Made by a program: the position numbers and the translations under genes. Shown here piece by piece: positions 33,102-48,965 of a stretch of DNA of 64,000 nucleotides. The notes under the pieces are model-generated. The model searched no databases and was not told where the DNA came from. It was given only the letters and a program-made list of their open reading frames with translations. Every line of letters begins with the position of its first letter. Position 1 is the stretch's first letter. Source of the stretch: Lachnospiraceae bacterium (GTDB taxonomy: Bacteria > Bacillota > Clostridia > Lachnospirales > Lachnospiraceae); contig JAGPFR010000005.1 of NCBI GenBank assembly GCA_018056425.1, positions 25,630 to 89,629 of the forward strand. Reading direction: 5' to 3'.

Positions 33102-34184
33102 ATGAGAAAACATTATTTGGACAACATCAGATGGATCACGGTTGTTTTGGTGGTATTTTATCATCTCTTTTATATGTATACGGCAACGGGTATACCCGGG
33201 GGAGTGGGTAATATCACGGGACTTGATGTCCAGTATTGGGATATGTATCAGTATGCGGTTTATCCATGGTTTATGTTCCTGCTTTTCATCGTATCGGGAA
33301 TAAGCTCAAGACTTTATTTTGATAACCATACGGCAAAGCAGTTCATAAAGAGCAGGACTGTAAAGCTCTTGGTTCCCTCGACAATAGGACTTTTTGTTTT
33401 CTGGTTTATCCAGGGATATTTAAGCATGTCCTTCGGTGATGCGTTTAACACCTTGTCAGGTGTTCCGAAATTTATTCAGTATTTCATCATGGCATTATCC
33501 GGAATCGGTGTACTCTGGTACATTCAGATTCTTTGGATCTTTTCGCTTCTTCTTGTACTTGTCAGGAAGATTGATAAGGACAGACTTTGGAATCTCGGTA
33601 AGAAGACCGGCATCATCGCGATCGTAATCATGGCAGCTCTTTCGTTCTTGGGAGCACAGGTGCTTAACACTCCCATCATATGCGTGTACCGTTTCGGATA
33701 TTACGGCGTAGCATTCTTTTTGGGATATTTTGTTTTCTCACATGACGAGGTTATGGAAGTTTTGAAGAAATATTTCTTCCTTCTTCTTGCAGCGGCGCTT
33801 ATCCTCGGCTTTGCATTTTGCTATAAGTACTTTGGTGAAAACTACGCAGATGCTCCCATAAACAGATATCCGCTTTTTACTTCTTTCGGATGGTTTGCAT
33901 CCATGGCTTTTTTGGGAGGAGGCGCCAAATATCTTGATCGTACAAACCGCTTTGCAACATGGATGACAAAGAAAAATTTCGGATTATATGTTTTCCATTA
34001 TCTGGGACTGTCCATAGTTGCATATTTTTTCGGAACCCGCGGGACGATTCATCCGGTAATTGTTTATGCGCTTTCGCTTGTTTCTGCATTTGTAACTTCG
34101 TATGTATTGTTTGAAATAATATCGAGGATTCCTTTCTTCAGATGGGCTATTCTCGGCATTTCGGGTAAAAAAAAGGAGAAATAA
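33102..34184 (+). CDS. Acyltransferase family 3 membrane protein
   Basis: The 360-residue protein has about 10 membrane segments. The first, RWITVVLVVFYHLFYMY, carries the conserved His of the acyltransferase-3 (OafA/YrhL-like) family, and the LYVFHYLG block near residue 295 is also typical. Such proteins acetylate or otherwise acylate cell-surface sugars. The gene for an XRE-AbrB regulator starts 2 bases after its stop. The 228-base gap upstream (32874-33101) holds the divergent yerC start and no clear element beyond short palindromes. Confidence 0.8.
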   Translation: MRKHYLDNIRWITVVLVVFYHLFYMYTATGIPGGVGNITGLDVQYWDMYQYAVYPWFMFLLFIVSGISSRLYFDNHTAKQFIKSRTVKLLVPSTIGLFVFWFIQGYLSMSFGDAFNTLSGVPKFIQYFIMALSGIGVLWYIQILWIFSLLLVLVRKIDKDRLWNLGKKTGIIAIVIMAALSFLGAQVLNTPIICVYRFGYYGVAFFLGYFVFSHDEVMEVLKKYFFLLLAAALILGFAFCYKYFGENYADAPINRYPLFTSFGWFASMAFLGGGAKYLDRTNRFATWMTKKNFGLYVFHYLGLSIVAYFFGTRGTIHPVIVYALSLVSAFVTSYVLFEIISRIPFFRWAILGISGKKKEK

Positions 34185-34185
34185 A

Positions 34186-34611
34186 TTGTTCAGGGATAAT
34201 ATCGTCAACCTCAGAAAAATACACGGTATGACGCAGGAAGATCTTGCGGAGAAGGCCGGTGTTACCAGACAGGCCGTTGCAAAATGGGAATCGGGCGAAA
34301 CGGTTCCGGATCTTGAAAAATGCAGATTGCTTGCGGAAACTTTCGGTGTATCTCTTGACGATCTTGCCAATTATGAGCCGGAAGATAATCTCGGACTTGA
34401 TGTTCCGCCCAAAGGAAAACACCTCTTCGGACTTGTTACCGTGGGAGATAAAGGGCAGATAGTTATCCCTGCAAAGGCAAGAAAACTATTTGACATTAAC
34501 CCCGGAGATTCACTTGTTGTGCTTGGCGATGAGGGGCAGGGGCTTGCGATCATCAAATCAGAGCATTTCTTAAATCTTGCAAATATGATCAGGAAGGTTA
34601 CTAAAAAATAA
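34186..34611 (+). CDS. XRE-type HTH regulator fused to an AbrB-like domain
   Basis: The 141-residue protein starts at a TTG (34186) preceded by AAAAGGAGAAA. Residues 1-62 are an XRE helix-turn-helix (NLRKIHGMTQEDLAEKAGVTRQAVAKWE). Residues about 82-130 are an AbrB/SpoVT swapped-hairpin domain (VTVGDKGQIVIPAKARKLFDINPGDSLVVLGD). Two DNA-binding modules in one short protein suggest a dimer with composite operators. It lies 2 bases after the acyltransferase gene and may control it or itself. Confidence 0.88.
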   Translation: MFRDNIVNLRKIHGMTQEDLAEKAGVTRQAVAKWESGETVPDLEKCRLLAETFGVSLDDLANYEPEDNLGLDVPPKGKHLFGLVTVGDKGQIVIPAKARKLFDINPGDSLVVLGDEGQGLAIIKSEHFLNLANMIRKVTKK

Positions 34612-34626
34612 AGTCACGGACCGTGT

Positions 34627-34655
34627 TTGGTTTTATTATGCGGGGATGGTAAAAT
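34627..34655 (+). promoter_or_regulatory. Predicted promoter of the radical-SAM pair
   Basis: TTGGTT (34627-34632) and TAAAAT (34650-34655) are separated by 17 bases, with TGG directly before the -10 box. Confidence 0.55.
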
Positions 34656-34682
34656 ACTTATAAAAAAAGGAAATCATCCCCA

Positions 34683-35585
34683 ATGAAGTTTTCTTCTTTT
34701 ATGCCGCTTGCCCGCTTCGGCGTCCGCACGGTTTTGTTCGGAAAAAAAGATCCCATACTCGGAACAGTAATAGTGACCGACAAGTGCAATTTAAAATGCA
34801 GGCACTGTTCGGTAAACAATATAACTGCCGTCATCCATCCTTATGCTCAGATAAAAGGAGAGATGCAGCAGCTTTTTGACATGGGGATCCGTATTCTTTT
34901 TTTCTGCGGAGGAGAGACATTCCTGTGGGAAGACAGCGGCAAGACCATAAGGGATCTTGTTATCGAAGCAAAAGAAATGGGGTTTCTTATCGTTAACGTG
35001 GTTACCAACGGAACGCACCCTATCGACCTTCCCGAGGCAGATCTGATACTCCTTAGTCTTGACGGAGACAGGGAGCGTCACAACGAAGTCCGCGGCGATA
35101 CCTATGATACGATCATGGAAAATATCGCAAATGCAACTTCGGACAATATCTGTTTTTACATGGCGGTTAATCAGATAAATAAAAATGCGATAGAGCATGT
35201 ATGCCGCAAAGCAAGAGATACAAAGAATGTAAGAGCGGTTTCTTTTAACTTCCATACTCCATATCCCGATACAAGGGATCTTGCGCTCAGCAAAGAAGAA
35301 AAGGCTGAGTGCTGCAGGACGATCGAAAAGATGATGAAGGAAGGATGTCCGGTATTTAATCTGAAGAGTGCATTTGACTATATCATCAACAACACATTCC
35401 CTACTCCCTGCTATCAGTGCGTTGTCATAGAAAACGGGAAGCTGTCGGTATGCGGAAGATGTATCGATGTTCCGGGGCTGTGTGATGAATGCGGATATTT
35501 CTTTGTTGCTGAATATACACTTTTATTCAGCGGAAATCTGAAGATAATTTTTGAGATGCTCAGAACATATCTGAAGTACGTGTAA
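34683..35585 (+). CDS. Radical SAM protein with C-terminal Cys cluster
   Basis: The 300-residue protein has the radical-SAM cluster motif at Cys35, Cys39 and Cys42 (CNLKCRHC). It also has the conserved FFCGGETFLW strand for SAM binding, and LLSLDGDRERHNEVRG. Six further cysteines between about residues 241 and 267 (CYQC, CGRC, CDEC) resemble a short SPASM/twitch-type site for an extra iron-sulfur cluster. The substrate is unknown. No small precursor peptide gene is next to it. It stands 2 bases before the second radical-SAM gene. Confidence 0.82.
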   Translation: MKFSSFMPLARFGVRTVLFGKKDPILGTVIVTDKCNLKCRHCSVNNITAVIHPYAQIKGEMQQLFDMGIRILFFCGGETFLWEDSGKTIRDLVIEAKEMGFLIVNVVTNGTHPIDLPEADLILLSLDGDRERHNEVRGDTYDTIMENIANATSDNICFYMAVNQINKNAIEHVCRKARDTKNVRAVSFNFHTPYPDTRDLALSKEEKAECCRTIEKMMKEGCPVFNLKSAFDYIINNTFPTPCYQCVVIENGKLSVCGRCIDVPGLCDECGYFFVAEYTLLFSGNLKIIFEMLRTYLKYV

Positions 35586-35587
35586 AG

Positions 35588-36841
35588 ATGAGTATAGGAA
35601 CTACGCTTACGAGAATGTGGCTTACAAGATCTTTCAGGCCCTTTCTTTTTACAAATGAATACGATGACGATCTGAAATTCGAAGATCTTGATAATCTCGG
35701 ACTTTACGTGCATATACCCTTTTGCGAGAGTATATGTAATTTCTGTCCCTATTGCAAAGTCATGTACGAGAAGGATCTTTGTGACAGATATATCGACGCA
35801 CTCATCAAAGAGATCCATATGGTCGGATCCCGCATCCCGGGTAAAAAGAAAACAACCAGTCTGTACTTCGGAGGCGGAACTCCCGCACTTGCTTCGGGAC
35901 GTATTGCTGAGATCATAGGTGCGATAAATGAGCACTTTATCATCACGGAAGGGATCGGAGCAGAGCTTCATCCTTCGAATGTAACTGCGGATAAACTCCT
36001 TGTTTTGAAAGAGGCAGGGGTTACGAAGATCAGTATCGGAATACAGTCTTTCGGTGAAAAATATCGTAAGATACTCGGAAGAAGTCAGGCTGATCCTGCA
36101 GCGCTTAAGAAAGCACTCGATGAAGTTTCTTTTGAAACCGTATCGATGGATTTTATCTTCGCACTTCCGGGTCAGATATTTGAAGATATCAGATCGGATA
36201 TCGACACGGCTTTTAAGTGCGGCGCAAATCATGTGGCGGTATATCCTTTTATCGATTTTACTTTTACATCCAGTAAAGTTAAGGCTATGCCCAAGAAGGA
36301 AAAGAGAGCACTTCTTGATAAGGTCACTGCATACTGCAGGGAAAAGGGATATCCCAGGAATTCCATATGGACATTTGCAGGCAAAGAGAATGCAAGATAT
36401 TCGTCCATGACGAGGGATAATTTTCTGGGCTTTGGATGCTCTGCGACAACGCTTTTGCGGGACAGGTTTAAGATCAACACATTCTCCGTGGAAGAGTACT
36501 GTAAGAGGGTGGATGAAGGAAAGCTCCCGACTTCCCTTACCATCAGATTCACCCTTCGCCAGAGAATGGTTTATTACCTCTTCTGGACAGCATATTCCAC
36601 CAAAATAGATCCCAAGGGGTTCGAGGAGTATTTCGGCGTGCCTCTGAGTAAGAAGTACGGCTTTGAGTTTGCCCTGGCCAAAATGGCAGGATTTTTGACT
36701 GAAGAAGACGGTGTTTATACCATGACTCCCAAGGGGGCTTTCTATTACCATTATTACGAGAATTTCTATACCCTCGCATATATAGATAAAATGTGGGGGA
36801 TCATGAGAAAAGAAGCATTTCCGGAAAAGATAGTTCTTTAA
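35588..36841 (+). CDS. HemN-like radical SAM protein
   Basis: The 417-residue protein has the radical-SAM motif at Cys46, Cys50 and Cys53 plus Cys56 (HIPFCESICNFCPYC), as in the HemN/HemW/HutW group. It also has LYFGGGTPAL, VTKISIGIQSFGEKYRKILGR and SMDFIFALPGQ, which are standard HemN-family blocks. True coproporphyrinogen oxidase cannot be told apart from HemW-like heme chaperones or HutW-like methyltransferases by eye, and no other heme gene is near. Pairing with the previous radical-SAM gene suggests a joint pathway. Confidence 0.82.
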   Translation: MSIGTTLTRMWLTRSFRPFLFTNEYDDDLKFEDLDNLGLYVHIPFCESICNFCPYCKVMYEKDLCDRYIDALIKEIHMVGSRIPGKKKTTSLYFGGGTPALASGRIAEIIGAINEHFIITEGIGAELHPSNVTADKLLVLKEAGVTKISIGIQSFGEKYRKILGRSQADPAALKKALDEVSFETVSMDFIFALPGQIFEDIRSDIDTAFKCGANHVAVYPFIDFTFTSSKVKAMPKKEKRALLDKVTAYCREKGYPRNSIWTFAGKENARYSSMTRDNFLGFGCSATTLLRDRFKINTFSVEEYCKRVDEGKLPTSLTIRFTLRQRMVYYLFWTAYSTKIDPKGFEEYFGVPLSKKYGFEFALAKMAGFLTEEDGVYTMTPKGAFYYHYYENFYTLAYIDKMWGIMRKEAFPEKIVL

Positions 36842-36922: not shown

Positions 36923-38143
36923 ATGAATTACGAGAAGATCATCAATGATTTTGTAAAGGATGGTGCCGGTGAGTTTATCATCACCGACAGGCACGGAGAT
37001 GTTCTGTACAGAAACCGTGTTGAAGAATTCACCGATGACCAGTGGAAGGCATGGGCAGCATTTAACATTGATGCTGCTACGATAGACCGTGAGGAAGATT
37101 GGGAAATCTCCGACAGAAGCGGCGGGAACTATTATAATGCCAAGTCGCTTCCCGTTTCATGCGACGGTGAAGAGGTCATCCTGCACCATGTTTACAACAC
37201 CAGTCAGTACGCAACTCTTTTGCGTGACGTTTCAGGCTATCTTAAGGATTGGAGAGATCTGAGTGCATTCCAGACAGCTATGCTGGAGAAGCTCTCGGGT
37301 AACTATGAATCCTGTCTGCCGGTTGTTCTTAAATATTTCAAAGTATCAAGCGCAGTAATGTATATAGGCCGTGACAGGAAGATGGAGAGACATCTTCTGA
37401 ACAAAGGCACTAAGACCATTGAATCCACCCGTATTGACAGGGAGGATGTTTTTGATGCTCCCAAGGGAGAATTCAGAAAGCTTCCCGGAATGGGCGATGA
37501 AGCATATCTGTGCTATATCTGCGACAGTGCGATACACGGAACCGATTATGCACTGTATCTTTATTCAGAAGAACTCGAGAGCGATGACGATTTCAGCATG
37601 CATTACAACGTCATAAAGCTCTTTATTGAAAACGGACTTCTTCGTGAACAGATTACCTACGAAAGTGAACACGACAAGCTCACATCCCTTTACAACAAGG
37701 GGAAATATATGTCCATGCTTTCGGACTTTCTTCCCAAGAAGAACCGTGTTGCCATTTATAACATGGACGTTAACTATCTCAAGAGGACCAATGATACGCT
37801 CGGTCACGAAGCGGGAGATGCACTTTTGGTTAAAGCGGGAAAGAGCCTTCTTGCAGTCGAAAGAGACAATGTCAGAGGCTTCAGAATGGGCGGGGACGAA
37901 TTCATGCTTCTCGGATGGGACCTTGAAGAGGAAGAAGCTGCTGCCGTCAAGAAAGAGTGGGAAGAAGCTCTTGATAAGCTTAATAAAACGGACAACGGTG
38001 TTGAATGTATCATTGCATGCGGTCTTGCTTACGGTAAGGGGGACTTCGATCTGAAGGAACTCCTCAAGAAAGCAGACGATCTGATGTATGAGAATAAAGT
38101 AGCTATTAAACTGTCCAGGGGTGAAGATCCCAATTCCAGATAA
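36923..38143 (+). CDS. GGDEF-domain protein, probable diguanylate cyclase
   Basis: The 406-residue protein (ATG at 36923, GGGGGG ribosome site) has an N-terminal part of about 230 residues that I do not recognise. The early segment resembles a PAS-like sensor (EFIITDRHGDVLYRN). The C-terminal GGDEF domain has an intact GGDEF at residues 323-327 and NDTLGHEAGDALL. No RxxD inhibitory site is seen at the expected spot before it. It should make cyclic-di-GMP. It is the first gene of the tightly spaced unit that includes the STAS and NRPS genes; a TATAAT lies at 36887-36892. Confidence 0.85.
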   Translation: MNYEKIINDFVKDGAGEFIITDRHGDVLYRNRVEEFTDDQWKAWAAFNIDAATIDREEDWEISDRSGGNYYNAKSLPVSCDGEEVILHHVYNTSQYATLLRDVSGYLKDWRDLSAFQTAMLEKLSGNYESCLPVVLKYFKVSSAVMYIGRDRKMERHLLNKGTKTIESTRIDREDVFDAPKGEFRKLPGMGDEAYLCYICDSAIHGTDYALYLYSEELESDDDFSMHYNVIKLFIENGLLREQITYESEHDKLTSLYNKGKYMSMLSDFLPKKNRVAIYNMDVNYLKRTNDTLGHEAGDALLVKAGKSLLAVERDNVRGFRMGGDEFMLLGWDLEEEEAAAVKKEWEEALDKLNKTDNGVECIIACGLAYGKGDFDLKELLKKADDLMYENKVAIKLSRGEDPNSR

Positions 38144-38167
38144 AATTACAGAACGGAGGAGAATAAT

Positions 38168-38467
38168 ATGACTATCAACAAGAATCAGGACGGAAGCAAA
38201 CTTGAAATCGCGCTCGAGGGAAGACTCGATACAATGACAGCACCCTCACTCGAAGAGGAAGTTAAGAATTCCATCGAAGGAATCAAGGAGCTTATCTTTG
38301 ATCTTAAGGATCTCGTATATGTATCATCCGCAGGACTTCGTGTTCTTCTGTCAGCCCAGAAAACCATGAACAAGCAGGGCAGCATGACTATTAAGAATGC
38401 AAATGAAGAAGTTATGGAGATTTTCGAAGTAACCGGATTTATTGACATCCTTAATATCGAGGAATAA
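38168..38467 (+). CDS. STAS-domain anti-sigma factor antagonist
   Basis: The 99-residue protein is a single STAS domain of the RsbV/SpoIIAA type. The phosphoacceptor loop reads YVSSAGLRVLL, with a Ser at the usual position (about 57-58). In partner switching the kinase phosphorylates this Ser, the PP2C phosphatase removes it, and the free form sequesters the kinase. The matching kinase and two phosphatases are further along in the same unit. GGAGGAG precedes the ATG. Confidence 0.9.
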   Translation: MTINKNQDGSKLEIALEGRLDTMTAPSLEEEVKNSIEGIKELIFDLKDLVYVSSAGLRVLLSAQKTMNKQGSMTIKNANEEVMEIFEVTGFIDILNIEE

Positions 38468-38483
38468 GGCTTGGATTAATCTT

Positions 38484-41400
38484 ATGGGTGGAGAATTAAT
38501 ACGGCTAAACCCTTCCAGGGAAGCTATTGAGATGAACGATCTGGCTTTTCCGGATTCGTCTATCAACACGGTCGGATTCAGGCTGGATCTTCCTGAGACG
38601 GATGCTGCGGACCTTAAGGATGCTTTCGAAAGAGTGGCAGACAAAACGGTTTTGCTGCATCTTGATCTGATTAAAAAAGACGACGGACGTTATCTGCATG
38701 ATACCGGGAAACCTGTATCGGCTGTTAGCGTCGGGAAAATAACGCTTGATGAAGCTGACGAAGAGTGGGAGAAAGATACGCAAAGTTCTCTCCCGGAGGC
38801 CGGATGGAAAGCAAAAGTTTTCTCCGTAAAAGACAGTGGGAGTTCTTTGTTTTTTCTGGTTCATCATCTGCTTCTGGACGGCTACACATGTATGCAGCTG
38901 GCCCAGCTTGTACTCGATGAGGTTAACGGCGTCAGTACGGACATTTCCGAGATCGATTATGCGCGTCTTCCGGAAGATGATGATAATTCGGACGGCTTAA
39001 CACGTGAAGAGCAGAAGAATTTCTGGTTGCATTATTTTGACGGAGTTCAGAATGAAGCATCAGTGATGCGCGGTGATCCTTCGGGATGCGAAAGGCTCCG
39101 TCTTACATGGAGCGTGCCGGAAGATCTTCTGGATAAGATCGATAAATTTGAAGAAGAAAAGGGACTCAAAGACTCCGCAGTGTTTGGTGCCGCTCTTTCC
39201 CTGTACCTTGCAAGGAGCGGGCAGACGCAGGACGGAGTTTTTCTTATGCCCAGACTTAACAGGGAAAATCCAAGGCAGCTTTCTGCAATGGACTGCATGA
39301 CCATGGTCGTTCCGGTCAGGAACACCATAAGGGAAGAGGACAGCTTTACAGAAATCTGCAGACAGTCAATGCGTCAGGCAAGGGAAGCATCCCGCCATAA
39401 GCATTACGGAATTAAAAACATAGCAGGAGACCTGCATGCCTCGGGCATATTAAGCGGCATGATATCCGAATATGTTCTCAACTGCATACACGCGGGAAGA
39501 CTCAGAAGCAGGCTTCCTTTTACCATCATGGAAAACATGAGCGGCGGTATGAGCAATCATCTTACGATCGCCGTTCAGCGTATCGCAGGCGGCATCAATA
39601 TGATCTATGATGCACGCGTCGGTATCTATGATGAAGAAAAGACAAAGGCATTTAACGATGCGCTCCTGCACATCATAGAGCAGGGTATAAGTTCTGAGAT
39701 CACCGCCGGTAATATTGAGATAGTCGCTCCTGCGGAGAAAGAAAAGCTCCTCGGGATCAAAGGCCGTGAGATCAAAGTAAGCGATACCGATTCCATAGCA
39801 GATCTTTTCAGGAAAGCGGTTGATAAGTATTCCGACCGGTATGCGCTTTATGCCGGTGACGAATCCTATACATATGCAGAGCTTGATAAGATATCAAGCC
39901 GTATTGCCAATGCACTTATCTATAAAGGAGTTAAGCCCGGAGAGCCGGTTCTGTATATGCTTAAAAGAGATCACAGACTGATCCCCGCACTCCTTGGAAT
40001 CATCAAATCAGGTGCATTTTTCATTCCGCTCGACCCTAATTATCCGGAAAAAAGGATCAGTTATATCACGGCGGATTCCGGTGCATCCAGGATGATCGTA
40101 AGCAGGGATACAATCGGAGAAGATGAGGGGATCGAATATCTTGATATCGATGGGCTGATCTCTTTTGAAGATGATAAAGATCCCTGCCTTTCAATTCCTC
40201 AGGAAAGCCTTGCTTATTCGATCTATACTTCCGGAACAACAGGTAATCCCAAGGGCGTTCTTCTGACTCACAAAGGTATCGTAAATATCACCGCACCGGA
40301 AAACAATCCCTTTAACCGGGAGGTGGTCAAAAACGGAAAGGGCATCGTAGCCATAGGTTCGGTGTGCTTTGATATTTCTCTTTTTGAATTCTTCGTACCA
40401 CTGTTCAACGGATGCTTTATTGAACTTGCACCAGAAAATGCAATGGCAGATCCCAGAGTTCTTGCCGTTCTTATACTTAAGCATAATGCAAATCTGATCC
40501 ACTGTACTCCGTCAAGACTTGCGGCATATCTTAGAGAAGAAACATTCAGCAGGGCGCTTAAGAGCGTCGATGCGGTTCTTTCCGCAGGAGAGGTTCTTCC
40601 CGGAAGCCTTATCAAGCAGCTCAGGGATGTATATGATGTCCATATCTATAACGGATACGGTCCTACCGAGACTACGATTGGCGCAACCATAACCGAAGAA
40701 GGTGATGAGCTTTCAATCGGTAAGCCCATCGCAAATACCGGAATACTTATTCTCGATGCAAAAGGAAGACTTGTTCCCTTCGGAGCACTCGGAGAAATCT
40801 GTATCTACGGAAACGGTGTAGGATGCGGATATCACAATCTGAGCGAAGAAACCGAAAAACGTTTCAAGGTATATTTCGGGAAGCGTCTGTACCGCACCGG
40901 AGATCTCGGAAGATTTTTTGATGACGGCAGGATAGAGTATCACGGCAGAAATGATTTTCAGGTCAAAGTAAGAGGCCTGCGCATAGAACTTGCCGAGATA
41001 GAAAACTGCATGATGTCTTATAAGGGTATCAATGCTACATGCACTCAGGTCAGAAATATGTACGGCAGGGATACACTGATAGGATTCTATACCGCAGTTC
41101 CCGGATGCGAGATAGACGAAGCTGCATTCAGGGAATATATGAGCGGGCGTCTCACCAGCTATATGGTTCCGGATATTTTAAAGCAGATAGAAGAGATGCC
41201 TTCGACTCCGGGCGGAAAGCTCGATCTTAAGAAGCTTCAGCAGATTCCGGTTGAATATGTTTCGATATACAGGGCTCCCGAGAATGAATACCAGCGTATT
41301 GTCTGTGAAGTATTTGGCAAGGTGCTCGGAATAGAGAAGGTCAGCATTAACGACAGCTTCTTCGAAATTGGAGGAGATTCGCTTCATACAGCCGAGCTTA

Positions 41401-42725
41401 TTCATAATCTCACGGAGAAAATACCGGGGCTTAAACTCGAGTTTGGAGACATATTTAAATATCCTGTTCCGGAAACGCTCGCCCAGTTTATCTACAGGCA
41501 GTTTGCAGAACTTAAGGAATCCAAAGAAAGCGTTATAGATAAGCTTGATTACACAGGCATAGATCATCTGCTTTCCAAAAACACGCTTCCTTCCGGTGAA
41601 ATTGCAGTTACAAGAAAACACGGAAATGTTCTTCTTACCGGAGCTACCGGATTCCTCGGACTGCATGTTCTTATGGAACTTTTAAAAGATCCGGATTCTT
41701 TTGAAAAGATCTATTGTCTTATAAGACCTACCAAGAGGCTGGATCCGCCGAAGCGTTTGAAGAACCTTTTGTTTTATTTTGAAAATACGGATTGTGAAGA
41801 GATGCTCGGGACCAGGATATTTGCGGTATCCGGAAATATCGAATCGGGGAAGATCTTTGATGAAGAGATTTCGGAGCATTTTGATACCGTTATAAACTGT
41901 GCCGCGGATGTAGCTCATTATGCATTCGACGATAAGCTCGATAAGGTTAATACCGAGGGAGTACGTAATCTCCTGAAGCTGTGCGAGAAGAATGAAGCAA
42001 GGTTTATACAGGTTTCGACAATATCCGTTTCGGGCTTTTACAGGAGCGGTTCAGAGCCGCTGAGCTTTGATGAGAGGAATCTCTACGTCGGGCAGACGAT
42101 CGACAATGGGTACATTCTTTCGAAATACATGGCAGAGTATGAATGCCTCAAAGCCATGGCTGGGGGCAGGGCCGACGTGAAGATCATGAGAGTCGGAAAT
42201 CTTCAGGGAAGATTATCTGACGGAGAGTTCCAGGTCAACAAGAATAAGAATGCATTTACAAGAAGACTTGTATCATATGTAAATATCGGGAAGGTGTCTC
42301 AAAGCGTTTATGACAGCTTCGTGAATTTCTCACCGGTGGATGAGGTTGCACATATGATTTGCAGTCTGTCGAAGCTTCCGATGGACTATACGGTATTCCA
42401 TGTTTCTCCGGATAAAGAGATCCCCATGAGTCTTTTGTTTGATTCTCTTAAAGATCTGGGATATGAGATCCTGGTTGTCAGTGATGAAGAATTCGATTCC
42501 TATGTTGAGGAGCTTAAGAGCGACAAGGATGGAAGAGAAAAGCTTGAAGGTCTTCTGGCAGACAATCCGGATATGAATTACAGATTCACAAATGTATCAC
42601 AGAGTTTTACTGACGGCATCATTAAAGAAGCCGGTCTTAAATGGGGGGATATCACAGAAGAATATCTTTCCAGATATCTGCAAGTGCTTGATGAATTCGG
42701 TATATTTGAGGGAGGGGTTATATGA
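38484..42725 (+). CDS. NRPS: condensation, adenylation, carrier and thioester-reductase domains
   Basis: The 1413-residue single-module synthetase begins with a condensation domain (about 1-425) whose active motif HHLLLDG is at 127-133. The adenylation domain (about 435-925) has YTSGTTGNPKG near 581, YGPTETT near 724 and YRTGDLG. The carrier domain (about 930-1005) has FFEIGGDSLHT with the phosphopantetheine Ser. The C-terminal reductase (about 1045-1400) has LLTGATGFLG and an intact YxxxK pair near 1211. It should release an aldehyde or alcohol instead of an acid. The start codon is 16 bases after the STAS gene; the end overlaps the phosphatase start (ATGA). No phosphopantetheinyl transferase is in the window. 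Confidence 0.92.
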   Translation: MGGELIRLNPSREAIEMNDLAFPDSSINTVGFRLDLPETDAADLKDAFERVADKTVLLHLDLIKKDDGRYLHDTGKPVSAVSVGKITLDEADEEWEKDTQSSLPEAGWKAKVFSVKDSGSSLFFLVHHLLLDGYTCMQLAQLVLDEVNGVSTDISEIDYARLPEDDDNSDGLTREEQKNFWLHYFDGVQNEASVMRGDPSGCERLRLTWSVPEDLLDKIDKFEEEKGLKDSAVFGAALSLYLARSGQTQDGVFLMPRLNRENPRQLSAMDCMTMVVPVRNTIREEDSFTEICRQSMRQAREASRHKHYGIKNIAGDLHASGILSGMISEYVLNCIHAGRLRSRLPFTIMENMSGGMSNHLTIAVQRIAGGINMIYDARVGIYDEEKTKAFNDALLHIIEQGISSEITAGNIEIVAPAEKEKLLGIKGREIKVSDTDSIADLFRKAVDKYSDRYALYAGDESYTYAELDKISSRIANALIYKGVKPGEPVLYMLKRDHRLIPALLGIIKSGAFFIPLDPNYPEKRISYITADSGASRMIVSRDTIGEDEGIEYLDIDGLISFEDDKDPCLSIPQESLAYSIYTSGTTGNPKGVLLTHKGIVNITAPENNPFNREVVKNGKGIVAIGSVCFDISLFEFFVPLFNGCFIELAPENAMADPRVLAVLILKHNANLIHCTPSRLAAYLREETFSRALKSVDAVLSAGEVLPGSLIKQLRDVYDVHIYNGYGPTETTIGATITEEGDELSIGKPIANTGILILDAKGRLVPFGALGEICIYGNGVGCGYHNLSEETEKRFKVYFGKRLYRTGDLGRFFDDGRIEYHGRNDFQVKVRGLRIELAEIENCMMSYKGINATCTQVRNMYGRDTLIGFYTAVPGCEIDEAAFREYMSGRLTSYMVPDILKQIEEMPSTPGGKLDLKKLQQIPVEYVSIYRAPENEYQRIVCEVFGKVLGIEKVSINDSFFEIGGDSLHTAELIHNLTEKIPGLKLEFGDIFKYPVPETLAQFIYRQFAELKESKESVIDKLDYTGIDHLLSKNTLPSGEIAVTRKHGNVLLTGATGFLGLHVLMELLKDPDSFEKIYCLIRPTKRLDPPKRLKNLLFYFENTDCEEMLGTRIFAVSGNIESGKIFDEEISEHFDTVINCAADVAHYAFDDKLDKVNTEGVRNLLKLCEKNEARFIQVSTISVSGFYRSGSEPLSFDERNLYVGQTIDNGYILSKYMAEYECLKAMAGGRADVKIMRVGNLQGRLSDGEFQVNKNKNAFTRRLVSYVNIGKVSQSVYDSFVNFSPVDEVAHMICSLSKLPMDYTVFHVSPDKEIPMSLLFDSLKDLGYEILVVSDEEFDSYVEELKSDKDGREKLEGLLADNPDMNYRFTNVSQSFTDGIIKEAGLKWGDITEEYLSRYLQVLDEFGIFEGGVI

Positions 42726-44194
42726 GTTCTTCAGTAATTTTGCTATGGAGCGTTTCGGCAGTAATATCTTTTGTGTTCTCGATGATAATGGCGGATGCCA
42801 CGCTCAAAGCCAAGTACCCGAAGGGGAAGATGATCTTCTGGTGGATCGTCGGTCTTATATCCGACTTTGTGCTGGTATTTGTGAGTTACACCATCAATCC
42901 CTTAGTTGATGTCATGAACGCCATTGGACAGTGCATCATCCTGGTAATCTGTCTTATCCTGCTTTACTCGGATTCACTGGAAAACAAAGCGTTTATCGGT
43001 ATGACAATGTCGCTTGCTTCCAGCGTTGCAATCTTCCTGTTCTGCGGAACAACGGATCAGATCGTTGGTGCAAGACTGAATCTTTTTGATGAAGTATTCG
43101 GACCTTATACCATAAAGAATATCCTGTTCTTCTCCGGCATCAAGATCATTGTTCTGGCAATAATCGCAGCATTGTATGTGTGCTTCCTCAGAAAAGCATT
43201 CACGGATATGCTTCGCCTGGCGGAAGGTCAGATGAAAAAATACCTTGTGGCACCTGCATTTTCGGTAATAGGTTTCTACATCATAAACATTGTTTCCAAT
43301 TCGACAGGGATCTATCCCACAAATGCATATTTCGTTCCTCTGTACCTGACTGTATGTACGATATTTGTTGTAGAGTATATCCAGATATTCTCATCCGTAA
43401 GATGGACAGCAGAGGCTAAGAAAGCAGAGCAGGAGAAAGAGAGGATAGGAGCTGAGCTTAATGTCGCCACTCAGATCCAGGCGGACATGCTTCCCAGAAT
43501 CTTCCCTGCATTCCCCGAAAGGAATGAATTTGATCTTTATGCACTCATGAATCCCGCCAAGGAAGTCGGAGGTGACTTCTACGACTTTTTCCTGATAGAC
43601 GACGATCATATAGGCCTTGTAATGGCGGATGTATCGGGTAAGGGAGTTCCCGCAGCACTGTTCATGGTCATCGCAAAGACACTTATCAAGAACAGGGCAC
43701 AGATGGGAGGATCCCCCTCAGAGGTTTTGGCATATGCCAACGATCAGCTCGGAGAAGGAAATGAAGCAGAGCTTTTCGTAACCGTATGGTTTGCTATAAT
43801 AGAGATATCAACGGGAAAGGGCGTTGCGGCAAACGCAGGTCATGAGCATCCCGCGATCTGTAGGAAGAACGGAAAATTCGAGCTCGTCAAATACCGTCAT
43901 TCACCTGCGGTTGCAACCATTCCGGGAATCGAATTCCGTGAGCATGAGTTTAAGCTTGAGCCCGGTGACAGTCTTTATGTATATACGGACGGTGTTACCG
44001 AAGCCACAAGAAGTGACAATGTGCTTTTCGGAACTGACAGGATGCTTGATGCACTCAACAAGAATCCCTCTGCTTCACCTGAAAAGATGCTGAAAACCGT
44101 CCGTGCCGATATAGATGAATTTGTCGGAAGCGCTCCTCAGTTTGATGATATAACCATGTTGGGATTCAAATACATGGGGGCCGGAAAGGAGTGA
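42722..44194 (+). CDS. Membrane SpoIIE-type PP2C phosphatase (first copy)
   Basis: The 490-residue protein has about 7 membrane segments in residues 1-225, a short coiled coil, and a SpoIIE/RsbU-type serine phosphatase domain (about 240-490). The metal-binding motifs are intact: EVGGDFYDFF near 282, MADVSGKGVPAALFM, TDGVTEA and FDDITMLG. The likely substrate is the phosphorylated STAS protein of the same unit. The N-terminal membrane part may sense a signal. It overlaps the NRPS by 4 bases. The catalytic half is almost identical to that of the gene at 44601. Confidence 0.92.
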   Translation: MSSSVILLWSVSAVISFVFSMIMADATLKAKYPKGKMIFWWIVGLISDFVLVFVSYTINPLVDVMNAIGQCIILVICLILLYSDSLENKAFIGMTMSLASSVAIFLFCGTTDQIVGARLNLFDEVFGPYTIKNILFFSGIKIIVLAIIAALYVCFLRKAFTDMLRLAEGQMKKYLVAPAFSVIGFYIINIVSNSTGIYPTNAYFVPLYLTVCTIFVVEYIQIFSSVRWTAEAKKAEQEKERIGAELNVATQIQADMLPRIFPAFPERNEFDLYALMNPAKEVGGDFYDFFLIDDDHIGLVMADVSGKGVPAALFMVIAKTLIKNRAQMGGSPSEVLAYANDQLGEGNEAELFVTVWFAIIEISTGKGVAANAGHEHPAICRKNGKFELVKYRHSPAVATIPGIEFREHEFKLEPGDSLYVYTDGVTEATRSDNVLFGTDRMLDALNKNPSASPEKMLKTVRADIDEFVGSAPQFDDITMLGFKYMGAGKE

Positions 44195-44196
44195 CA

Positions 44197-44604
44197 ATGA
44201 GAGAACTTAGCATTGAAGCTTTGGTAGAAAATCTGGATCAGGTAATTGCGTTTGTCGATGATGAAATCGACAAACTGGATTGTTCTGTCAAAATCCGGAC
44301 TCAGATCGATATTGCGGTTGAGGAATTATTTGTAAACATTGCTCACTACGCATACAATCCCGAGACGGGTCCCGCAACGGTAAGAGTTGAGGTTGAAAAG
44401 GATCCTCCTGCCATATCGATAACCTTCATCGACAAAGGCGTGCCTTACGATCCTCTTGCCAAGGAAGATCCGGATATTACTCTTTCTGCCGAAGAAAGGC
44501 AGATCGGAGGTCTCGGAATATTCATGGTCAAGAAGAGCATGGACAGCATAGACTATGAATATAAAGACGGCCAGAATATTTTACATATCAGAAAAATAAT
44601 ATGA
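44197..44604 (+). CDS. RsbW-like anti-sigma/serine kinase
   Basis: The 135-residue protein is a GHKL ATPase of the RsbW/SpoIIAB kind. The N-box is VEELFVNIAHYAY, G1 is DKGVPYDP and G2 is GGLGIFMVKK. It would phosphorylate the STAS protein and bind an unknown partner. No sigma factor gene is near. The ATG at 44197 is preferred over a GTG at 44191 because GAAAGGA lies 6 bases upstream. It sits between the two phosphatase genes. Confidence 0.92.
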   Translation: MRELSIEALVENLDQVIAFVDDEIDKLDCSVKIRTQIDIAVEELFVNIAHYAYNPETGPATVRVEVEKDPPAISITFIDKGVPYDPLAKEDPDITLSAEERQIGGLGIFMVKKSMDSIDYEYKDGQNILHIRKII

Positions 44605-46262
44605 AGAATAAAAGATTTAATGTGACAGGTCTTGCCGGAAGGCTCATACTGGGGCTTGCTCTTTTCGTTGCACTTGTAATCGTCGGTTCGATCAGCGTCG
44701 GTATCAATACATACAGGGCATCAACCTACAGACATTACAATGATGTGGCATATCAGGTTGCGCGTTCGGTTGAACTGCTTTTTGACAAGGAACAGCTGAA
44801 AGCATGGAGTGATGCTGCGTTTGAATATAATACTTCGGGAACCGGGATCGAGAAGATAGAAGAGATCAGACAATCCGAAGATTATCTTGCATATCTGGAT
44901 ACTTTTACAAACTTACGCCGCGGAATGGATGCCGATGACATTTTCATAGGTGCCGTTAATGGAGATGAGATTTATTACATTCTGGATACGGATCCTTTGG
45001 AGGACAGAAGATATACTCTCGGTGACAGCAGCGGTATCGAGGTATACATCAGTGAAGGGCTTCGCAGCGCATGGCAGACCGGTATCCCCTACAGCGGATA
45101 TCTGATACATGAGACTGATTACGGTCAGAACATTACCGCTGTATATCCGATAGTTCATGACGGATCAACGATCGCATTTGTTGCGGTTGAATCTCCAATG
45201 AGAACACTTGAATCGGATGTTAACAGTTATATTTTCACCGTGCTGATAATCGTATGCATCATCTCGGTAATTCTCTTTGTCCTTACCGCATTCATACTTG
45301 TTAACCTGCTCATCAGACCCATCAAGACCATTTCACACGAAGCCGCATATTTCGTTGAAAATGAAAACGAGATCTCGGAAAATCTCCGGAAGATCAAGAA
45401 TCGTGATGAGATACAGGTGCTTGCGGAAAGCGTTCTTAAGATGGAGATCGGTATCAACGAATACATCTCCAACCTGACCAGGGTAACGGCTGAAAAGGAG
45501 AGGATCGGAGCTGAGCTTAATGTCGCTGCCAAGATCCAGGCAGACATGCTTCCCGGTGTTTTCCCCGCATTCCCCGAAAGGCATGAATTTGATCTTTATG
45601 CACTCATGAATCCTGCCAAGGAAGTCGGAGGTGATTTCTACGATTTCTTCCTTATCGACGAAGATCATATCGGACTTGTTATTGCGGACGTATCCGGTAA
45701 AGGAGTACCCGCGGCATTGTTCATGGTCATTGCAAAGACACTTATCAAAAACAGAGCGCTCATGGGAGGTTCACCTTCACAGGTCCTTGCATATGCCAAC
45801 GATCAGCTCGGTGAAGGAAATGATGCTGAGCTGTTTGTAACCGTCTGGTTTGCAATCATCGAGATTTCGACAGGTAAGGGACTTGCGGCAAATGCAGGTC
45901 ACGAGCATCCCGCACTTAGAAGAAAAGACGGCAGTTTCGAACTTGTAAAGTATCGTCACTCACCTGCCGTTGCAACCATGCCCGGAATAAACTTCAAGGA
46001 GCATGAGTTCAAACTTGAACCCGGTGACTGCCTGTATGTATATACCGACGGAGTTACGGAGGCTACAAGAAGTGACAATGAGCTCTTCGGAACAGACAGA
46101 ATGACAGCATCGCTCAATAAGAATCCTGATGCGGATCCTAAGACAATGCTTGAGACGGTTCGTGCCGATATTGATGAATTTGTCGGCGACGCACCTCAGT
46201 TTGACGATATTACGATGCTTGGATTTAAGTATATGGGATCAGAAAAATCTCCACTTGCTTAA
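44601..46262 (+). CDS. Sensor SpoIIE-type PP2C phosphatase with HAMP region (second copy)
   Basis: The 553-residue protein has two membrane helices (about residues 15-37 and 208-232) enclosing an extracellular sensor of about 170 residues. A HAMP-like linker and coiled coil (about 232-295) follow, and then a phosphatase domain (about 300-550) with EVGGDFYDFF near 343. That domain matches the one of the 42722 gene over about 250 residues with few changes. It overlaps the kinase by 4 bases (ATGA) and its last 24 bases overlap the convergent permease gene. Confidence 0.92.
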   Translation: MKNKRFNVTGLAGRLILGLALFVALVIVGSISVGINTYRASTYRHYNDVAYQVARSVELLFDKEQLKAWSDAAFEYNTSGTGIEKIEEIRQSEDYLAYLDTFTNLRRGMDADDIFIGAVNGDEIYYILDTDPLEDRRYTLGDSSGIEVYISEGLRSAWQTGIPYSGYLIHETDYGQNITAVYPIVHDGSTIAFVAVESPMRTLESDVNSYIFTVLIIVCIISVILFVLTAFILVNLLIRPIKTISHEAAYFVENENEISENLRKIKNRDEIQVLAESVLKMEIGINEYISNLTRVTAEKERIGAELNVAAKIQADMLPGVFPAFPERHEFDLYALMNPAKEVGGDFYDFFLIDEDHIGLVIADVSGKGVPAALFMVIAKTLIKNRALMGGSPSQVLAYANDQLGEGNDAELFVTVWFAIIEISTGKGLAANAGHEHPALRRKDGSFELVKYRHSPAVATMPGINFKEHEFKLEPGDCLYVYTDGVTEATRSDNELFGTDRMTASLNKNPDADPKTMLETVRADIDEFVGDAPQFDDITMLGFKYMGSEKSPLA

Positions 46263-48203: not shown

Positions 48204-48965
48204 CTATTTGTTGTATTTCTGCGATACGAAGAATTCCTTGAGGGTTTTGATAAGATCCGCTTTATTGATGGTTTTTAGCAGGTATCCCGCAGGTCTTAGG
48301 CTCATTACCTTCATAATGCTTTCCTTATCGTTTTTGCCGGTAAGGAACATTACGGGTATTCCCGATATCTCGGGGTCCGATTTCATCATCTCATAGACCT
48401 TCGGCCCGTTTGTGATCGGCATATCGTAATCGAGCAGCAGAAGATCTATCTGATTATTGGACATATGATTGATCGCCTGCATGGCAGAAGATACGATCGT
48501 CACATTATATTAGTGCTTGAGCCATTCCCTTATTATCTTAAGGTATGTTGCATCATCGTCGACGACAAGGATGTTCTTCTTCTGACTGAAGTCATCGGAA
48601 GTATATTTATTCATGTCGCTTATCAGCCTGTTCATATCCAGGGGTCTTGCCATGGTATCGCAAAGGGATGCCTGGGGAACTGTTTTGTATATGTATTGAA
48701 ATTCATCGGGGTCGCCGATCACATACAGGAGTTTATTCTCGTCCAGAACAATCTCTTTAAGATACGTCAGAACGGAAGATACAAGTTCGATCGTCTCGAT
48801 GCCGTCCGTGTAAAACAGTATGAGCGAGCAATCATCCTTATATCTCTGAATGGATTTGGTGTTTACCGGCTCTTCGAGAACATTGAAGCCCGCTTTTATA
48901 AGTCCTCCGGTAATGGCACTTGTCATGAAGTTTTTTTCTTTTCTGATGAAAAGTATCGATGCCAT
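48204..48965 (-). pseudogene. Response-regulator gene split by an in-frame TAA
   Basis: Read on the minus strand, one frame runs from the ATG at 48965 to 48204 except for a TAA at 48510-48512. The first 150 residues end in a receiver-domain start (NILVVDDDATYLKIIREWLKH). The frame resumes directly after the stop with YNVTIVSSAMQAINHM, then the phosphoacceptor LLLLDYDMP, and the LT and LKTI motifs of the same receiver. A Lys at the stop would restore a normal domain, so a single A-to-T change (AAA to TAA) is likely. Restart at a GTG (48503) would give a receiver lacking its acidic pocket. The N-terminal 105 residues are a second, non-canonical receiver-like domain. No output domain is present. 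Recent inactivation, readthrough or a read error are all possible. Confidence 0.8.

Follow-up and report, generated by a model that had tools for sequence, protein, structure and literature searches.

Partner switches are usually taught as controls of sigma factors, and the RsbW, RsbV and SpoIIE families classically serve in this role. Switches that act on a diguanylate cyclase have also been described. In the SiaABCD system of Pseudomonas aeruginosa, the phosphorylation state of the antagonist decides cyclase activity, with SiaC acting on SiaD (PMC7278518), and in the same species the anti-anti-sigma factor HsbA interacts with the diguanylate cyclase HsbD (accessible part of PMC5085249). A nonribosomal peptide synthetase (NRPS) beside switch genes is likewise in print: mru0066-0071 of Methanobrevibacter ruminantium M1 comprise an NRPS, two serine phosphatases, an anti-sigma factor antagonist and MatE, for which the authors guessed at environment sensing, regulation and export (accessible part of PMC2812497, 2010). 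Here we analyse a 64,000-nucleotide stretch of a Lachnospiraceae bacterium draft genome (contig JAGPFR010000005.1, positions 25,630 to 89,629), hereafter the window, in which an NRPS gene lies inside an operon that encodes a partner switch and a GGDEF diguanylate cyclase.

The operon resembles SiaABCD in combining a membrane PP2C phosphatase, a kinase, a small antagonist and a diguanylate cyclase (PMC7278518; accessible part of PMC8457831). It differs in that the antagonist is a STAS protein (P0002), the kinase is an RsbW-type HATPase_c_2 protein (P0005), a second phosphatase is present and an NRPS sits in the middle. In NCBIfam, which we take to contain SiaB and SiaC models, no SiaB or SiaC match was found for P0005 or P0002, and the Sia equivalog cut-offs were not reached (SiaA 67.5 of 700 bits, for SpoIIE2; SiaD 68.2 of 290 bits). 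The window proteins are thus outside the Sia families, and we therefore argue that the operon works like SiaABCD, not that it is a SiaABCD system. HsbA belongs to the HptB pathway and lies near flagellar genes, with no NRPS mentioned in the accessible part of PMC5085249. The M. ruminantium M1 cluster is a printed precedent for an NRPS with a partner switch, but it is archaeal and has two modules, and the accessible part of PMC2812497 contains no GGDEF protein, kinase-exporter fusion or comparative survey. RsbU/RsbV/RsbW and SpoIIE/SpoIIAA/SpoIIAB comprise the same three families as the window switch, in which the antagonist serine is kept, but the window operon has no cognate sigma factor, and the curated RsbW, SpoIIAB and SpoIIAA equivalog cut-offs are not reached by its proteins.

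A first, sequence-only reading of the window had proposed a new kind of signalling module. A switch that targets a diguanylate cyclase is no new kind of module (SiaABCD, HsbA-HsbD), and an NRPS beside switch genes was printed in 2010 (accessible part of PMC2812497), the one relevant paper among those listed by literature searches on NRPSs with partner switching. For an NRPS in a GGDEF partner-switch operon, or for the pairing of the NRPS with its phosphatase SpoIIE1, no printed account was found among the entries listed by searches that mostly left subscription papers outside, and the words diguanylate, HsbA and peptide synth are absent from the accessible part of a review of STAS-only proteins (PMC8256260). 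Of the new points, the strongest are the linkage of NRPS, SpoIIE1 and RsbW in two separate groups, an exchangeable slot in the operon and the excess of RsbW-type domains in the neighbourhood of reductase-ended NRPSs. Tentatively, we favour a sigma-free partner switch that would drive the cyclase, with the NRPS and a sensor phosphatase as cargo in a fixed slot.

RESULTS

The operon and its chromosomal site

The operon (positions 36923-46262 of the window) consists of six + strand open reading frames (ORFs) with intergenic gaps of 24, 16, -4, 2 and -4 bases, in a draft genome (G000) of 2.56 Mb and 84 contigs. Pfam, with all matches over its cut-offs, gives the order GGDEF, STAS, a synthetase with condensation, adenylation, peptidyl carrier protein and reductase domains (C-A-PCP-R), SpoIIE (SpoIIE1), HATPase_c_2 (RsbW) and SpoIIE (SpoIIE2). 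The ORFs, the Pfam matches and the intact motifs thus agree with the genes, gaps and protein types of the sequence-only reading, and so does its remark that no sigma factor is present, as Pfam matched no sigma-factor domain among the six proteins. We read the intact HHxxxDG, GGDS, reductase, GGDEF and SpoIIE motifs as marks of active proteins.

A second genome of the genus, G011, has the identical six genes in identical order. Between G000 and G011 the synonymous divergence (dS) is 0.56-1.17 and the ratio of nonsynonymous to synonymous divergence (dN/dS) is 0.023-0.088 across all six genes, which indicates purifying selection on each of them. Because order is identical and dN/dS is this low, the six-gene arrangement is not chance. 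A promoter and terminator scan of the operon was at chance level (26 promoter-like sites against 23.4 in shuffles) and is neutral on whether the six genes share one transcript.

Among 31 genomes of the genus, an orthologue of the GGDEF gene occurs in 12 and the full NRPS in 2. Neighbours were counted with tblastn, since maps from ORF picking miss some small genes. Ten loci that extend beyond the GGDEF-STAS pair lie at the same site, with the left-hand neighbours seen in all ten and the right-hand ones in seven (at G015, G001 and G045 the contig ends earlier), and they show three states. State A (G000, G011) is GGDEF-STAS-NRPS-SpoIIE1-RsbW-SpoIIE2. State B (G043, G044), with an empty slot, is GGDEF-STAS-RsbW-SpoIIE2. 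State C (G015, G004, G017, G040, G001, G045) is GGDEF-STAS-ATPgrasp-MATE-GH3-SpoIIE-RsbW and encodes an ATP-grasp enzyme, a MATE exporter and a member of the GH3 acyl-amido synthetase family; in G045 it is visible up to the start of SpoIIE, where the contig ends. The 3.5 kb contig of G005 carries only a diverged GGDEF-STAS pair, and the G046 locus runs into a contig end.

Eight of the ten loci are without the NRPS (seven complete with GGDEF, STAS, RsbW and SpoIIE, plus the contig-cut G045), so the resident switch can do without it, and since state C holds ATP-grasp, MATE and GH3 genes, the slot accepts different small-molecule cassettes. This comparison shows that the resident module is GGDEF-STAS-RsbW-SpoIIE2 and that the cargo is NRPS-SpoIIE1. 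It also divides the suggestion of the sequence-only reading that the NRPS product is sensed by both membrane phosphatases: SpoIIE2 remains where the NRPS is absent, which rules it out as a product sensor, so that product sensing is viable for SpoIIE1 only.

The state C cassette was seen at loci L037-L041 and L141 (for example L038:7286-11802), and GH3 is present in 7 of 80 RsbW loci, L141 included; the isolate name of L141, a relative from the genus, Tb.RUG.334, points to a rumen habitat. Directly upstream of the window operon, at 33102-36841, lie genes for an acyltransferase, a helix-turn-helix (HTH) protein and two radical-SAM proteins, which are retained in states A and B and in G015 and unmatched in the remaining state C loci. 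A response-regulator gene on the - strand (48204-48965) is split by an in-frame stop in the window; its counterpart in G011 (L033:17743-18504) is a single frame of 253 aa.

The synthetase keeps SpoIIE1 and RsbW outside the genus

Relatives of RsbW in named genomes were scanned as the best 80 of at least 572, and the NRPS searches (of the class, and of the family of genome G697) scored the best two to three candidates per genome. The RsbW scan brought in G697 (locus L202, uncultured Clostridiales RUG11935), in which the NRPS is directly followed by SpoIIE1 and RsbW. Searching 200 genomes of its family with the NRPS gave two further orthologues, in G752 (STAS-NRPS-SpoIIE1-RsbW) and in G748 (NRPS-SpoIIE1-RsbW between the ends of a 4.5 kb contig cut on both sides). 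The order NRPS-SpoIIE1-RsbW was thus found in five of five genomes with an orthologue (at least 49% identity). The NRPS alone led to G011, G752 and G748, and the analysis started from G000; G697 is no independent test of the RsbW linkage, because it was found through its own RsbW. STAS stands in front of the NRPS in three of the four orthologue loci whose 5' side is visible, and GGDEF and SpoIIE2 accompany it only in the two genus members.

In none of these five genomes does the synthetase stand apart from SpoIIE1 and RsbW. Moreover, the sensor part of SpoIIE1, searched by tblastn in the fetched loci and not genome-wide, matched solely in the five genomes with an NRPS orthologue. The linkage suggests that making and sensing of a molecule are wired together. 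The sequence-only reading had let its proposal depend on whether the NRPS varies independently of its flanking genes in relatives, and here the answer is asymmetric: the switch goes without the NRPS in most of the ten genus loci, while in the genomes found the NRPS has not parted from SpoIIE1 and RsbW. That the six genes are one ancient unit was considered and rejected, since GGDEF and SpoIIE2 are not near the NRPS in G697, G752 or G748 (20, 20 and 4.5 kb seen). RsbW proteins 69-76% identical to P0005 of the window were also met at L142, L145 and L171, on contigs labelled Synergistaceae, either through gene transfer or as mis-binned contigs.

RsbW-type domains near reductase-ended NRPSs

Of 295 genomes of the order, 28 have reductase domains (TIGR01746, E 1e-25), at 30 places in all; HATPase_c_2 genes number one to seven per genome (one in G000). 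Such a gene lies within 10 kb of 7 of the 30 places against 0.66 expected (P ~2e-6), a statistic computed after some of the neighbourhoods had already been seen. The class-level set was fresh: 391 genomes gave 33 NRPS matches, spread over 32 of them, and 8 of the 32 places outside G000 have a HATPase_c_2 gene within 10 kb, with 0.62 expected (P ~1e-7 uncorrected). Four of these eight places belong to one genus, and P for five or more is 3e-4. All these figures take random placement and ignore contig ends and relatedness. RsbW-type domains are thus found near reductase-ended NRPSs at about 10 times the random expectation. No HATPase_c_2 was found within 10 kb of 23 of the 30 order places and 24 of the 32 class places, and in G027 and G272 the nearby gene and the NRPS lie on opposite strands. 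In the family of G697, the fetched stretches around 11 NRPS places (a raw count without control) hold STAS, RsbW or SpoIIE genes in eight cases, a MATE-HATPase fusion only in one and neither in two.

Other domain combinations were noted at related loci. L151:3503-4690 joins a STAS domain to one of APH-type kinase; this partner-switch locus includes a C39-peptidase ABC transporter. LPG_synthase_C, of aminoacyl-lipid type, lies in the partner-switch locus L075 (12324-13268, Pfam), and tblastn places it also at L142, L145, L183, L187 and L190 (22-48% identity, 5 of 80 RsbW loci). A fusion of ABC-ATPase to HATPase_c_2 was dropped as a firm claim, since two of six long ABC proteins (L142, L171) matched and both were below the Pfam cut-off.

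The proteins of the switch and the synthetase

The synthetase P0003 (38484-42725, + strand, 1413 aa; Condensation, AMP-binding, PP-binding and NAD_binding_4) is a single-module NRPS with C at ~1-430, A at 442-920, PCP at 939-1003 and the reductase at ~1048-1405. Its HHxxxDG, GGDS and reductase (TGATGFLG and YILSK) motifs are intact, and with all four domains it has what we took to define a reductase-ended NRPS. The A domain is over its cut-off (TIGR01733, 341.7 against 317.4 bits), and the reductase is over that of PF07993 and, at 154.6 bits, below that of TIGR01746 (213.35). Identity to the orthologues is 89% in G011, 49% over the full length in G697, 49% in G752 and 56% for the fragment in G748. 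The best NCBIfam match is the aureusimine synthetase type AusA (576.7 bits, far under the cut-off of 2500), from which P0003 differs in having one module with an N-terminal C domain, so its product should differ from aureusimine. Another genome of the genus, G009, encodes ParB_N, C, PCP and reductase domains in one frame (L008:3-2786, start cut by the contig) in which no A domain was matched, followed by a STAS gene (L008:2897-3187).

The phosphatase SpoIIE1 (P0004, 42722-44194, + strand, 490 aa, Pfam SpoIIE) has seven membrane segments (1-226), predicted from hydropathy only, and a SpoIIE/PP2C domain at 293-482. SpoIIE2 (P0006, 44601-46262, + strand, 553 aa, Pfam SpoIIE) has, by the same prediction, one segment at ~15-33 and two at ~203-241, between which the protein is presumably extracellular, and a SpoIIE/PP2C domain at 353-542. 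The four SpoIIE metal-binding motifs are intact in both. In G000 the two catalytic domains are 84% identical and the N-terminal sensor parts are unrelated; because the catalytic domain is shared and the sensor parts are not, the two phosphatases would be two sensors feeding one substrate. The kinase P0005 (44197-44604, + strand, 135 aa, PF13581 1.1e-21), a putative serine kinase, contains the N, G1 and G2 boxes and is the sole HATPase_c_2 match in G000 at E 1e-6; against PDB sequences it gave no match at E 0.001.

The antagonist P0002 (38168-38467, + strand, 99 aa, PF01740 2.6e-16) is over the curated TIGR00377 cut-off (72.6 against 53.45 bits). In an alignment to 6m36_B its S54 falls on the RsbV-motif serine, and this phospho-acceptor serine is kept in 105 of 106 distinct STAS hits. 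A STAS protein with the serine, a HATPase_c_2 kinase with its boxes and SpoIIE/PP2C phosphatases with their motifs are thus all present, as we ask of a partner switch. The cyclase P0001 (36923-38143, + strand, 406 aa, PF00990 2.5e-22) has an N-terminal sensory part of ~240 aa, probably PAS then GAF, ahead of the GGDEF domain. The GGDEF motif is intact (residue 323), and the RxxD of the I-site is lost, reading RDNV by eye. GGDEF and STAS genes are adjacent in 11 of 11 testable loci of the genus, which is only suggestive of activation of the cyclase by the antagonist.

Besides G000, the N-terminal part of P0001 has one match among 295 genomes of the order, in G058, where the GGDEF gene lies downstream of RsbW and STAS. 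There (L100:5745-9722) a CHASE2-guanylate/adenylate cyclase gene precedes RsbW, STAS and GGDEF, in another nucleotide-signalling partner switch. A third lineage is L191, found via RsbW; alongside STAS, SpoIIE and RsbW it encodes a GGDEF protein with 36% identity over its length.

DISCUSSION

In the sigma-free switch that we favour, RsbW would phosphorylate STAS on S54, and both SpoIIE2, with its extracellular sensor part, and SpoIIE1, with its seven-helix membrane sensor, would dephosphorylate it. By analogy with SiaC and SiaD, unphosphorylated STAS would bind and activate the neighbouring diguanylate cyclase, and cyclic di-GMP (c-di-GMP) would rise. The NRPS may condense one amino acid with an acyl or aminoacyl donor and release the product reductively as an aldehyde or alcohol. 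SpoIIE1 would then read the level of this product, or of a precursor, at the membrane and feed the same STAS pool, and synthesis and c-di-GMP state would thereby be coupled.

Several observations weigh against this account. The one line of evidence for product sensing by SpoIIE1 is co-occurrence. In G697 no STAS gene is adjacent, and eight STAS matches lie elsewhere in its genome. There is no GGDEF gene by the NRPS in the stretches seen of G697 and G752 (20 kb) and G748 (4.5 kb), so c-di-GMP is no general partner of the NRPS. The structure model of P0001 is poor, with a predicted local distance difference test (pLDDT) score of 52, and made a comparison with the SiaD stalk impossible. Finally, G000 has four matches to the sigma-factor model TIGR02980, all below its cut-off, which the switch could reach in trans.

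One alternative, which we consider rather unlikely, is that the switch gates export: STAS would bind an RsbW-like kinase or pseudokinase domain on a MATE exporter of the NRPS or GH3/ATP-grasp product, and the operon in the window would be a reduced form, with its exporter lost or encoded at another place. Reductase-ended NRPSs indeed adjoin MATE proteins whose C-terminal HATPase_c_2 domain is over the Pfam cut-off at L073:4496-6259, L075:43-1872, L169:2065-3822, L258:3351-5093 and L259:9467-11194; a further such fusion at L151:6229-7950 is in a locus with no NRPS match. Seventeen of the 80 RsbW loci supplied 19 MATE proteins for clustering; 11 of these match HATPase_c_2 at E <=0.01 and 8 do not. 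All 14 aligned long MATE proteins share the N-box Glu E494 and E495, P535, G548 and N568. The N-box Asn survives in L169:2065 (NRPS-linked), L151 and L210, and the other 11, the GH3-linked ones among them, have lost it. Even the state C MATE at the window's own site has a C-terminal part that matches HATPase_c_2 (E 0.0095, below the Pfam cut-off) and is alpha/beta in an AlphaFold model (pLDDT 83.9). Against export gating, the window operon has no MATE gene and G000 no second HATPase_c_2 at E 1e-6, and in Foldseek the best 50 of 401 matches of the state C model were MATE or flippase structures, with the C-terminal part alone unmatched. For the loci with MATE-HATPase fusions themselves, the domain arrangement suggests possible docking of the antagonist on the exporter. 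No description of MATE-RsbW fusions was found among the literature entries listed, mostly without subscription papers.

Also unlikely is a conventional anti-sigma switch in trans, in which RsbW would hold a sigma factor from another locus, and the regulon of that factor would simply take in the whole operon with its NRPS. This is the textbook role of the RsbW, RsbV and SpoIIE families, and matches to TIGR02980 below the cut-off exist in all 11 genomes searched, the best in G000 being 7.1e-41 (a 645-aa frame, RpoD-like by size) and 1.2e-36 (265 aa), with two in G748 at 1.6e-55 and 9.4e-52. However, this curated SigB/F/G cut-off was reached in none of the 11 genomes and in 1 of 14 controls. The six operon proteins contain no sigma domain (Pfam, with no sigma-factor search made in the compared loci), and the linkage of STAS to GGDEF stays while the remainder of the operon changes.

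That NRPS-SpoIIE1 was inserted for suitable expression by mere co-transcription, with no functional tie to the switch or c-di-GMP, would agree with the full NRPS in just 2 of 31 genus genomes, with the unrelated cassette in the same slot and with the majority of reductase-ended places in order and class that have no HATPase_c_2 nearby, but it is already disfavoured and, we think, improbable, as the three orthologues outside the genus (one found via RsbW) retain SpoIIE1 and RsbW and as HATPase_c_2 is enriched in both sets.

The sigma-free switch of the window may belong to a general class in gut and rumen Clostridia, a possibility that we regard as somewhat doubtful. Sigma-free switches for small-molecule production would carry interchangeable cassettes (NRPS; GH3 and ATP-grasp) in a fixed slot, would either have antagonist docking sites (kinase or pseudokinase domains) on the exporter or be read out by a diguanylate cyclase, and would have a cassette-specific membrane phosphatase that senses the product, in a self-sensing circuit, with the member in the window coupling to c-di-GMP. 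If the circuit is real, it would help to explain the gene neighbourhood described in 2010 in a rumen methanogen (accessible part of PMC2812497). The NRPS with its own sensor phosphatase and the MATE-RsbW exporters offer handles on the STAS target and on product sensing. To our knowledge, the regulation of gut and rumen natural products is largely open, and such a circuit, if real, would tie a secreted small molecule to its export and to c-di-GMP through phosphorylation in intestinal anaerobes.

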